Part shown: positions 165-5,919 of the stretch, piece after piece
Layout of the letters: every line of letters begins with the position of its first letter
Numbering within the stretch: position 1 is the stretch's first letter
DNA from: Nitrospinota bacterium
GTDB taxonomy: Bacteria > Nitrospinota > Nitrospinia > JACRGO01
Assembly: GCA_016212295.1 (NCBI GenBank)
Contig: JACRGO010000109.1
Coordinates: forward strand, 1 to 8,648
Reading direction: 5' to 3'
DNA length: 8,648 nucleotides
Translations under genes and position numbers: made by a program
The notes under the pieces: model-generated
The model's input: the letters and a program-made list of their open reading frames with translations, nothing else
Databases searched by the model: none
Told to the model about the DNA's origin: nothing

Positions 165-354
165 AGCACGAATTACACTAATCAACGAATAGCACTAATA
201 GAAAATTTTTGAATTATTAACAGTCTCAAAATAGTATTGATATAACCCACCCCGGCGCTCCGCGCCACCCCTCCAAGGAGGGGAATTTTTATGTGCGTTC
301 TATTTTGAGACGGTTAATAATCCGGATAATTCGACTATTCGCGGCATTCGTGCT
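165..354. repeat. Outer imperfect inverted repeat enclosing a smaller element
   Basis: AGCACGAAT (165-173) is matched on the opposite strand by ATTCGTGCT (346-354), and CGAATAG (186-192) by CTATTCG (335-341). The spacing between the two blocks differs between arms (12 versus 4 nt), so the arms have diverged. The left arm (AGCACGAATTACACTAATC) resembles dispersed 'cacgaat/cactaat' spacer repeats common in environmental genomes. The better-preserved 214-320 element sits between the arms, as if inserted into an older palindromic repeat. Confidence 0.4.
214..320. mobile_element. 107-bp palindrome-ended MITE-like element
   Basis: The ends are 21-bp inverted repeats matching at 20 of 21 positions (214-234 and 300-320). 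Each begins TTATTAA-N2-GTCTCA and continues AAATAG. Inside are two GC-rich hairpins: GGCGC/GCGCC (254-258, 262-266) and a perfect 16-bp palindrome, CCCCTCC-AA-GGAGGGG (268-283). There is no coding capacity. The layout fits a non-autonomous REP/RAYT-type or MITE-like element. The same TTATTAA-N2-GTCTCA terminus ends the RAYT-remnant element at 4152-4800, which suggests a common mobilising enzyme. Target duplications are not obvious. Confidence 0.6.
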
Positions 355-3467: not shown

Positions 3468-4142
3468 TCAATTCGGCTTACCGTCAGTGGGGCAGGCAAG
3501 GGTCGGGATAATTCTTGACCAGATGATAAGGATGGGGACCAATTCGAATTCAAGGAGGTCAGCCACGGAGATCCAATCGTGGTTTTGTTGTGATTGAAGA
3601 ACACCGCTCAATGCCCTGGTCATGTCCCCATGCAGGTCGGCCAGGGATTTATCCTCAGTGGTTATGGTGTCGAAATCCAGGTCAAGGGCTCTTTTCAATA
3701 AATCCAGAAGGCTCACGAATTTTTCGAAGATTTCAATCAAGAGAACCAGCCTCCGGTTCGCTTCCGCTTCGTCATTATAGCGGAAAAATCCCGCGGTCTT
3801 CTTCGTCTCCACCACCACCTCGATCAACTGCGCGGAAGTAAGCTTTATGCTCTCCATGCTTATTTCCCTGGCGCTGGCGACAAAAACTTCCAAGGCGCGT
3901 ATTTCCTCCACGGGAATGAATTCAGGATGGCATTGCTGCTCCTCTGTCAATTCCACGCCGTTCAATAATACATGGTTCAAAACTGAATCGGCCGGCGCAG
4001 CCTCTTCCAGGATGCGTTCCAGTATGTCCTTCAAGGTCCGGCAGTCTCCCATGTTAATGACCTTGCTTTCATTATTTACTTTAATATCCAATTTTTTCTC
4101 TTTCACTGTAAAATCAAATACCCTTTTTTCACACAAAGCCAC
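3468..4142 (-). CDS. Uncharacterised helical protein, first gene of operon
   Basis: Up to 224 aa, with no signal peptide or membrane segment. The N-terminal part (about 16-80) alternates short strands and a helix (LDIKVNNESK, TLKDILERILEEA, NHVLLNGVEL) and could be a small beta-grasp-like domain. From about residue 95 it looks almost wholly helical and rich in Leu, Glu and Ala (for example RRLVLLIEIFEKFVSLLDLL). The start is uncertain. The longest form uses GTG at 4142, but its first codons lie within a CACAAAG-type spacer repeat. GTG at 4106 (reading VKEKKLDIK) is an alternative, with a GGG-rich stretch 14 nt upstream, giving 212 aa. The gene ends 6 bp before the radical SAM gene, so the two are probably coupled and may work together. 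I do not recognise the family. Confidence 0.65.
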   Translation of the reverse strand: MALCEKRVFDFTVKEKKLDIKVNNESKVINMGDCRTLKDILERILEEAAPADSVLNHVLLNGVELTEEQQCHPEFIPVEEIRALEVFVASAREISMESIKLTSAQLIEVVVETKKTAGFFRYNDEAEANRRLVLLIEIFEKFVSLLDLLKRALDLDFDTITTEDKSLADLHGDMTRALSGVLQSQQNHDWISVADLLEFELVPILIIWSRIIPTLACPTDGKPN

Positions 4143-4147: not shown

Positions 4148-4321
4148 TTACATATTGATAGTCTCATAACAGTAGCGGCATAGTCTACATATCTCTCGTT
4201 CCCAGGCTCCTGCCTCACTGCCATTAAGTTAAAGAAAATAATTTTTTTCAAGCCTGAAAGGCTGATTTATTATAGCCCAGGGCAACGCCCTAAGGTTTAT
4301 ACACATCTTGTCTCAAATGAT

Positions 4322-4421
4322 GCATCCCGGAGGGATGCCAGCCATTAGCCAGGGGTTGAGGCCTCAGGCCGATACCCCTGGTATCCGCGAAAAATTAATT
4401 AATCCGACCCCGGAGGGGTCG
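4322..4421. repeat. Left hairpin triplet of the RAYT element
   Basis: There are three palindromes. GCATCCC-GGA-GGGATGC (4322-4338) and CGACCCC-GGA-GGGGTCG (4405-4421) share the same GGA loop. CCAGGGGT/ACCCCTGG (4349-4356, 4374-4381) forms a longer stem enclosing GAGGCCTC, and is preceded by ATTAGCC. The long stem flanked by two short GGA-loop stems is the REP-like signature that would be recognised by a RAYT transposase. Confidence 0.65.
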
Positions 4422-4515
4422 CAGCCGATTCAATCAAATCCAATTTTATAAGAGGCAGCCGTTTTTTTGTTCCGAAGACGATGTGATAATGAAGGCTGCG
4501 GTATGTCGATGGCAC
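4399..4515 (-). pseudogene. Remnant of RAYT (IS200-like, REP-associated) transposase
   Basis: A 38-codon frame starting at GTG (4515). Its first residues, VPSTYRSLHYHIVFGTKKRL, match the conserved start of Y1/REP-associated tyrosine transposases (typically PSTYxSLHYHIVFxTKxR). A good ribosome binding site, AGGAGA (complement of 4521-4526), is still present. After about 28 codons the frame runs into the left hairpin arm (SAATPPGSD) and stops. The HUH motif (usually DHVHLL) and the catalytic tyrosine are missing, so no active enzyme is made. This fits an internal deletion that removed most of the gene but left its start and both flanking arms. The frame is also open upstream to 4773, but that part reads through repeat hairpins and is not protein-like. 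Confidence 0.7.
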
Positions 4516-4531
4516 GGTCTTCTCCTGCCTG

Positions 4532-4633
4532 GCACCCCTCCGGGGTGCAATCGTTATCGCATCTTTTTCCGGTGGTGTCGCCCGTTGGCACGGGCTTAAC
4601 CACCGGCTAATAGCTTCGAACCCTCCGGGTTCG
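4532..4633. repeat. Right hairpin triplet of the RAYT element
   Basis: Mirror image of the left triplet. It has GCACCCC-TCC-GGGGTGC (4532-4548), a long stem CCGGTGGT/ACCACCGG (4569-4576, 4599-4606) with an inner CCCG/CGGG, and CGAACCC-TCC-GGGTTCG (4617-4633). Loops read TCC here because the arm is inverted relative to GGA on the left. GGCTAAT, the complement of the left-arm ATTAGCC, again abuts the long stem. Stem sequences differ from the left arm while pairing is kept, so structure appears to be conserved over sequence. Confidence 0.65.
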
Positions 4634-4801
4634 GAAAATGGCAAAAAATGTGTATAAACCTTAGGCGTTATTAAGTCAGTCCTTCTGGCTTTTTTCAGAA
4701 TATTTCCCCTTAACTTAATGACAGTGAGGGAGGACCCCGGGAGCGGGAGGAAGTTTATTTTGGTTGCGGCCACGTCGCGATATAATGAGACCCTTAATAA
4801 T

Positions 4802-4950: not shown

Positions 4951-5919
4951 TCAATCCTTGACACAGCGAACGCTGAACCCGTTGCTCTTACCGAGGTCGT
5001 AACGGTTCACGTAACCGTAGTCGGAGGACAGGCGACGGAGCCACGCGTTTGTAGCAGTGTACTCCGTAGCCGACCACCAGCGACCGGTGTAGCCGATGGT
5101 GTCGAATGGACCGGTGAGGCTGCGGTAACCACCAGGAAGCGCTGTAAAACCACTGCTGTTGTCAGCGGATGTATTGGGGCTAGCCCAGTGAGTTGTTCCG
5201 GCTTCTTTCATTTTGCCGCCGACTACGCTTTCGCCTCCAAGATAATCCGTAAGCGTTGTCCATTCGGCGTCGGTCGGCAAGTGCCATCCCGCAGGGCACA
5301 GGCCTCTGCTGTCAGTCGCGGCAAACCAGGTATATAAACGTCCGTAAGTAGCCGCATTGCTTTCATCGCCATTATATGCCCACTGGTATGCTGACGAGGT
5401 CTCGGCTGAAATATCCACTGTGGTAGTGGGTATGGCAGTGCCGTCACGGTACTTAGTTACTTTAAGGTTCTCCTTTATCCATGTCTGTGTGCCTATTACT
5501 ACTGAGTTATAAACGTTGCCGTCAATGTCGGTTATCTGCGGCCCGGTGACCACGCCGCCCGTTGTGCCCCCGCCGGAAGAGGATTTTTTGTAAGTCGCTG
5601 TCACTGGCGTTGTCTTCCCGGCCCTTACCTGAACACTTTTCTTTCCGCTCCTGGGAGACACAATGGTATACCACGTCAAGTCCCCGAACTTTACCTCATG
5701 CGTCCCTGCCGTAACATTCACGGTCACTTTCCCTGTCCCCTTCTGCACATTATCCACGGATATCGGAGCGGCTACCTGTTTTTTCGAGGTGTCCTGCGTG
5801 GTAATCACAAGTGTGCCGGTTCCAGCTTTAGCGGCAAGGGCTGAAAATGGCGCAAGGACGGGCGCGAAAAGCCAGAAAATAAGCGTGAGAAACAAAACTT
5901 TCCTAATACTTTTTTTCAT
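4951..5919 (-). CDS. Secreted PEGA-like / FISUMP-domain protein
   Basis: A 322-aa exported protein. A signal peptide (about 1-30: KKSIRK, a hydrophobic core, then SALAA) is followed by a small beta-rich domain (about 34-111) resembling PEGA-type surface domains (GTLVITTQD, VTAGTHEVKFGD). A Ser/Gly linker (113-122, SSSGGGTTGG) leads to a Fibrobacter succinogenes major paralogous domain (TIGR02145; about 127-322). Its hallmarks are all present: DIDGNVYNSVVIGTQTWIKE (131-150), LCPAGWHLPTDAEW (207-220), FTALPGGYR (258-266), GRWWSATEY (279-287) and the ending GFSVRCVKD. C208 and C319 may form a disulfide. The protein is probably displayed on or released from the cell surface, where it may bind a ligand; the role of the domain is not established. 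AGGAG (complement of 5927-5931) lies 7 nt before the ATG. It is transcribed alone. Confidence 0.88.
   Translation of the reverse strand: MKKSIRKVLFLTLIFWLFAPVLAPFSALAAKAGTGTLVITTQDTSKKQVAAPISVDNVQKGTGKVTVNVTAGTHEVKFGDLTWYTIVSPRSGKKSVQVRAGKTTPVTATYKKSSSGGGTTGGVVTGPQITDIDGNVYNSVVIGTQTWIKENLKVTKYRDGTAIPTTTVDISAETSSAYQWAYNGDESNAATYGRLYTWFAATDSRGLCPAGWHLPTDAEWTTLTDYLGGESVVGGKMKEAGTTHWASPNTSADNSSGFTALPGGYRSLTGPFDTIGYTGRWWSATEYTATNAWLRRLSSDYGYVNRYDLGKSNGFSVRCVKD

Follow-up and report, generated by a model that had tools for sequence, protein, structure and literature searches.

A probable nest of decayed mobile elements around an internally deleted Y1 transposase element in a Nitrospinota bacterium

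We analysed mirror-image hairpin arms that enclose the start of a transposase gene (positions 4152-4800) in an 8,648-nucleotide stretch of DNA from a Nitrospinota bacterium (contig JACRGO010000109.1 of assembly GCA_016212295.1; the whole stretch is hereafter the window). The locus is probably a nest of decayed mobile elements, the innermost of which is an internally deleted element of a Y1 transposase (TnpA_Y1). This innermost element spans 377 bp (4289-4665) and has terminal inverted repeats (TIRs) of 19-21 bp, three-hairpin arms and a transposase remnant with its ribosome binding site. It would lie within a miniature element resembling insertion sequences (ISs) of the IS4 family, which would in turn lie within a broken hairpin resembling repetitive extragenic palindromes (REPs), between the repeat ends of a third family. 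The full-length form of the inner element would have consisted of a terminal repeat, the hairpins H1, H2 (with an AGCC foot) and H3, a ribosome binding site, a TnpA_Y1 of ~150 amino acids with the motif Y---Q--HH, the mirror hairpins and a terminal repeat. Because near-palindromic elements are nested at one another's centres, the whole mimics one unit and its inverted copy, and the initial annotation had indeed described a single ~220-bp unit with an inverted copy at 4152-4800; this description did not hold, since the outer ~135 bp on each side belong to other repeat families that are found alone elsewhere in the genome. The features are as follows, where G001 denotes the congener, the sole other genome in the same genus.

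4149..4191, plus strand: layer 1, left, TTATTAACAGTCTCATAATAG repeat end (TIR1), degraded, with 3 mismatches to TTAACAGTCTCATAATAG; aligns to C29
4192..4214, plus strand: layer 2, left, half of a REP-like hairpin, CTCTCGTTCCCAGGCTCCTGCCT; unbroken counterparts (CTCGCTCCCAGGGTCCTCCCTGGGAGCG) at C29 and C101
4215..4291, plus strand: layer 3, left arm, end CACTGCCATTAAGTTAAAG and hairpins AGCCTGAAAGGCT and AGCCCAGGGCAACGCCCT; 68/71 identical to the C127 copy (L006/L065)
4289..4309, plus strand: layer 4, left terminal inverted repeat (TIR3), CCTAAGGTTTATACACATCTT; in the two genomes the exact 19-mer is found elsewhere only at G001:C249
4317..4430, plus strand: core left arm, H1 GCATCCCGGAGGGATGC, H2 AGCCAGGGGT..ACCCCTGG, H3 CGACCCCGGAGGGGTCG; copies at C131 (93%), C199 (74%) and C87 (79%)
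4444..4515, minus strand: TnpA_Y1 gene remnant, GTG at 4515, ~24 codons, MPSTYRSLHYHIVFGTKKRLPLI; aligns with full-length Y1 transposases
4516..4527, minus strand: ribosome binding site region, CAGGAGAAGACC, directly upstream of the GTG, as read in the sequence; AGGAG six bases upstream
4528..4639, minus strand: core right arm, inverted, H3' GCACCCCGGAGGGGTGC, H2' AGCCGGTGGT..ACCACCGG, H1' CGAACCCGGAGGGTTCG; C131 94% and C87 88% identical
4645..4665, minus strand: layer 4, right terminal inverted repeat (TIR3); 95% complementary to 4289-4309, 1 mismatch to the 19-mer
4666..4726, plus strand: layer 3, right arm, hairpin TCAGTCCTTCTGGCTTTT and end CTTAACTTAATGACAGTG; 55/58 identical to the C127 copy
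4727..4749, plus strand: layer 2, right, half of a REP-like hairpin, AGGGAGGACCCCGGGAGCGGGAG; a hairpin subtype other than that of the left half
4750..4796, plus strand: layer 1, right end, GAAGTTTATTTTGGTTGCGGCCACGTCGCGATATAATGAGACCCTTAATAA; part of it (query 611-647) repeated at ~20 places; terminates in ATGAGACCCTTAATAA like C29

The search of the genome for other copies of the arms, which had been proposed earlier as a check, recovered further copies of the core at C131, C199 and C87. Their interior deletions or arm order differ from those of the window copy, and the core boundaries agree within a few bases; a shorter piece of the gene start is retained at C199, and the gene start is wholly lost at C131. 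These copies are 74-94% identical over the best-matching stretches, which indicates no recent burst, and what survives in the window is most likely a relic. The arms of the C87 copy (L004 1518-1745) are ordered H3'-H2'-H1'-14 nt-H1-H2-H3, as from the joint of two outer ends; judged from this order, the copy is compatible with a circular intermediate, and two adjacent partial elements would also produce it.

A full-length element of 769 bp (L107) is present in the congener at G001:C249. It begins with the exact TIR3 19-mer and continues with a hairpin, an AGCC-footed hairpin, a hairpin, an intact Y1 transposase gene (151 amino acids), mirror hairpins, of which the outermost is weak, and a closing terminal repeat with three mismatches; TATTA is present on both flanks. 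In L108, another copy in the congener, the gene is interrupted by an early stop and the right end has decayed. The plan of L107 recurs in the window copy, with the gene cut down to its start. Taken together, L107 and the three core copies with other interiors or arm order bear out the proposal that the element in the window is internally deleted. The TIR3 repeats (window 4289-4309 and 4645-4665, and the L107 ends) also include TTATACACA, which fits the DnaA box TT[AT]TNCACA, perhaps by coincidence. TIR3 was not found in viral contigs, and L125 and L127 (G001:C183) carry solitary CCTAAGGTTTATACACA ends with no adjoining hairpin arms.

The symmetry of the arms was supported by alignment. Inverted arms lie at 4193-4363 and 4592-4749, and the alignment of 4152-4476 with the reverse complement of 4476-4800 gave a local score of 80, whereas the scores of 500 dinucleotide shuffles averaged 18.8 and never exceeded 29; taken alone, the core arms match less strongly in inverted orientation, at a score of 33 (shuffles: mean 15.9, best 29). 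The mirror-image arms of the initial annotation were thereby confirmed, as was its hairpin order, H1-H2-H3 and then H3'-H2'-H1', in the core (4316-4640). The near-perfect inverted blocks that it had placed near the outer parts of the arms are present as well (4289-4309 and 4645-4665, a 21-bp block, being 95% complementary), but these 18-21-bp blocks sit between the core and the outer layers. Folding of the inner 377 nt as a single strand gave -88.6 kcal/mol (z = -9.3). Furthermore, when stem pairing was aligned for seven arms from four places (the window, C131, C87 and C199; 25 pairs), the named stems paired in 95.4% of cells with two-sided changes at 9/25 pairs, and pairing fell to 29-50% in the control, in which the partner was slid by 1 to 3 columns. 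The stems have thus diverged in sequence and still pair, as had been noted, much of the covariation being a single event, the divergence of the left and right arms, that recurs in several copies. The foot of H2 was AGCC in all of the aligned arms (7/7).

The outer layers were found with contents other than the core. The TTATTAACAGTCTCATAATAG repeat end occurs at 47 places in the window's own genome at <=2 mismatches (control, 0), and ends of this type form ten pairs ~100 bp apart, one of them at window 217-317. At C29 the outer TTATTAACAGTCTCATAATAG repeat encloses only two REP-like hairpins, both intact, and C29 is a paralogous unfilled state of the outer layers; in the window, the REP-like hairpins are broken, with the IS4-like miniature element between their halves. 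The pair in the window bounds a 107-bp mini-element (213-322) with the ends TTATTAACAGTCTCAAAATAG and CTATTTTGAGACGGTTAATAA and two hairpins within.

The ends of the miniature layer (TIR2) are CACTGCCATTAAGTTAAGG, with 1 mismatch at each end in the window, and the C127 copy of this layer (~95% identical) has six hairpins without the transposase remnant. The same CACTGCCATTAAGTTAAGG ends bound a 1.57-kb IS on a viral-collection contig (L132), which has a 10-bp target duplication and a match to DDE_Tnp_1 (E = 1e-6). Congener miniature copies that hold six hairpins are flanked by 10-12-bp duplications inside a REP-like hairpin (L084, 11/11; L086, 11/12; L078, 10/11). ISRm22 is an IS4-family element that hits REP symmetry axes (PMC1525189), and an IS4-like transposase may similarly have moved the miniature layer into the REP hairpins. 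The transposase of the resident IS4-like IS was not recovered in this genome, where contigs break at that IS, and the DDE genes that were found are without CACTGCCATTAAGTTAAGG ends. Indeed, ~20 contigs (e.g., L012, L015, L017, L019, L021 and L026) end 90-160 bases inside an IS with CACTGCCATTAAGTTAAGG ends, so that this multicopy IS breaks the assembly. Further movement of the IS4-like layer could in principle occur if the resident IS is active.

To what class the transposase belongs was examined with the remnant, whose N-terminal peptide is MPSTYRSLHYHIVF, and with its full-length relatives. A 30-amino-acid query made from the remnant gave full-length genes in 395 genomes in the phylum of G077 (deposited as Deltaproteobacteria). 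Within its own phylum (77 genomes) it recovered its own copy only, and neither the 395 genomes of the G082 phylum (record titled Nitrospirae) nor a plasmid search yielded a match; a weak hit in G082 itself proved on inspection to be due to chance. The best match, L139, is 64% identical over 25 amino acids (E = 1e-5 per genome). The full-length genes of L107 and L139 match Y1_Tnp with E ~1e-22, and the NCBIfam models class them above the cut-off as IS200/IS605 transposases, with REP_Tyr_transpos below the cut-off or absent. All aligned full-length relatives carry Y---Q--HH, and the motif region is deleted in the window copy; Y---Q--HH is the signature of TnpA_Y1 subclass 1.2, whereas RAYTs carry Y---NP (PMC6006769). 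Consequently, of the earlier statement that ~28 codons of a RAYT remain with a ribosome binding site, the gene start stood (GTG at 4515, AGGAG and ~24 alignable codons), but RAYT in the strict sense was not supported because the relatives carry Y---Q--HH rather than Y---NP and the foot is AGCC rather than GTAG; from these sequence comparisons, the name should be replaced by TnpA_Y1, probably of subclass 1.2. No subclass 1.2 gene or cognate full-length transposase was found in this 90.5%-complete assembly, and the Y1 genes of the same genome (L030-L032), considered as the cognate, are clearly Y1 but of other types. The gene at L031 1101-2100 (C211) is class-2-like, lies in a GCGGATTTGCAATCCGC-type repeat array and adjoins a FISUMP gene resembling that of the window, and at L032 1600-1800 (C139) a Y1 transposase frame appears to have taken up GGGGCGGG..CCCGCCC palindromes without loss of frame, a feature reported for subclass 2.4.

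In 2018, subclass 1.2 was set apart as relatives of the IS200 transposases that lack element ends, do not behave as ISs and generally have no terminal IS200 structures (PMC6006769), and no later paper on the subclass was found in a literature search. We compared the flanks of eleven subclass 1.2 genes, none of which was picked for hairpins, with those of 15 IS200-type control genes, for which relatives found in viral contigs served, scoring any AGCC-footed hairpin of >=6 pairs that lay, oriented as expected, on one side or both. An AGCC-footed middle hairpin was found beside 7/11 subclass 1.2 genes on ten sides, against the 0.24 sides predicted by shuffles, and beside 2/15 controls, both of identical sequence. 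Six of the seven genes are independent because L107 and L108 are close copies. Inspection by eye revealed the order hairpin, AGCC-footed hairpin, hairpin on both sides of L107, L109, L141 and L144 (the upstream foot of L144 being altered) and the same layout with an AGCG foot at L165, a Bacteroidota plasmid copy; arms were not found at L140, L166 and L167. The arms beside the L144 gene are similar to the six-hairpin interior of the congener's miniature elements. A match of 11-13 bases to TIR2 near L144 was judged to be chance.

The arms in the window copy and the AGCC hairpin beside 7/11 relatives are at odds with a general lack of terminal structures, and it would seem that these little-studied transposases are part of mobile elements ending in three hairpins. 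We infer that the arms are the recognition ends; by analogy with TnpA of IS200/IS605, TnpA_Y1 would have bound them in single-stranded form and cleaved the DNA at the hairpin feet. Whether mirror-image three-hairpin arms with an AGCC-footed middle hairpin represent the ends of an undescribed class of single-strand elements that is run by subclass 1.2 in several phyla and has given rise by deletion to REPIN-like derivatives, including a circularly permuted one such as a circular intermediate would leave, is in our judgement evenly balanced. If this is true, subclass 1.2 gains an immediately testable substrate, and many unnamed hairpin repeats in environmental genomes would be explained.

The window is contig 60 in a 3.74-Mb genome assembly of 237 contigs. 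The element has two neighbours, both on the minus strand: a gene of 224 amino acids without an assigned function (3468-4142) and a FISUMP-domain gene (4951-5919). Among named organisms, Nitrospinia bacterium OFTM173 holds the closest relative of the radical SAM gene (65% identity). The whole stretch, used as a query, matched its own genome at 75 places, almost all in one part only; comparison with Rfam gave no structured-RNA match, a tRNA scan found none, and searches of plasmid and phage DNA gave no match.

The nested arrangement has to be weighed against three other explanations. That the locus is a single RAYT element of 650 bp, internally deleted, with arms of 220 bp and still mobilised in trans, is very improbable in our view. 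Such an element would account for the mirror-image arms, which are real, for the transposase start with its ribosome binding site and for the full-length congener copy of the inner part, but the outer layers occur alone and with other contents, on which ground the single element was rejected; the cognate subclass 1.2 gene was not found in this assembly, the other copies have diverged, and the relatives with Y---Q--HH are not RAYTs in the class 2 sense (PMC6006769). Least probable is a host or transcript function (terminator, RNA stability or chromosome organisation) for which the hairpins were kept, with symmetry arising from selection. Pairing is kept despite sequence change and the locus is intergenic, as this would predict; however, copies lie in unrelated places, a terminator-like site was not found inside the core, and the arms flank transposase genes in several phyla. 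The hairpins are also absent upstream of the orthologue of the 224-amino-acid gene in the congener (L099 6027-6200), but this empty-site comparison, which had been proposed earlier, is not decisive: it is not a clean empty site because the neighbouring gene differs.

A third alternative, which we regard as possible though distinctly doubtful, is a family of miniature inverted-repeat transposable elements with captured six-hairpin cores, spread by carriers with classical ends (TIR2, which is IS4-like, and TIR3), for which the Y1 enzyme is no longer relevant. It draws on several G001 sites at which TIR2 copies enclose the same six-hairpin interior and have 10-12-bp duplications, on the enclosure by TIR3 of two different transposase types in two genomes, and on TATTA on both sides of L107. 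Several observations also weigh against the nested arrangement that we favour. The cores at C131, C199 and C87 are without TIR3, so that TIR3 may belong to a carrier and not to the transposase element; the remnant matches Pfam Y1_Tnp weakly (E = 0.08, ~24 codons) and is by itself too short for placement in subclass 1.2; and the N-terminus of the L107 gene is unlike the remnant, so that L107 is an architectural homologue and not the parent. Nor is the nesting itself clean, since the miniature layer in the window has no target duplication common to its two flanks (5/12), its H3 pair is missing and its right H2' is short by ~12 bp; because of these losses, recombination or replacement is possible, and a recombinational hybrid of the kind put forward for ISRm22 (PMC1525189) would explain both the absent target duplication and the two flank subtypes. 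Against the carrier reading, the cores without TIR2 or TIR3 (C131, C199 and C87) share boundaries at the hairpin feet, and thus spread or copying of the core has also taken place independently of any carrier. We retain a nest with an internally deleted Y1 element at its centre, which shows that stacked palindromic elements can mimic one large symmetrical element.

Among the known systems, TnpA_Y1 subclass 1.2 (PMC6006769) resembles the full-length relatives in the Y1_Tnp core, the length of ~150 amino acids, Y---Q--HH and the few copies per genome; the published description differs from the present elements in that 7/11 genes here have an AGCC-footed hairpin, mostly in three-hairpin arms, and deleted derivatives exist. 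REPtrons, REPINs and RAYTs (class 2 TnpAREP; PMC3116915, PMC2817692) are alike in having a palindrome-flanked Y1 gene, short gene-less copies and inverted hairpin pairs. Palindromic copies without the gene, as in REPINs, were found here elsewhere in the genome (C131, C199 and C87), but the foot tetranucleotide is AGCC and not GTAG or GTGG, the motif of the relatives is Y---Q--HH and not Y---NP, the three-hairpin arms have a fixed order, and the copy number is low. IS200/IS605 elements and their hairpin-ended deletion derivatives share the Y1 transposase, the subterminal hairpins and the deletion derivatives, whereas here each arm has three hairpins and TIRs of 19-21 bp are added in two elements. 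TIRYTs (PMC3733652, discussed in PMC6006769) likewise have a Y1 transposase between TIRs; however, their proteins are mostly of subclass 2.1, their consensus GGGG[AT][CG]A[CG] is absent from TIR3 (CCTAAGGTTTATACACATC), and TIR3 carries TTATACACA, which matches TT[AT]TNCACA. The miniature layer is comparable to REP-targeting IS4 elements of the ISRm22 type, DDE ISs at the axis of REP palindromes that make short direct repeats (PMC1525189), but its copies lack a gene, hold six hairpins and are flanked by duplications of 10-12 bp rather than 6.
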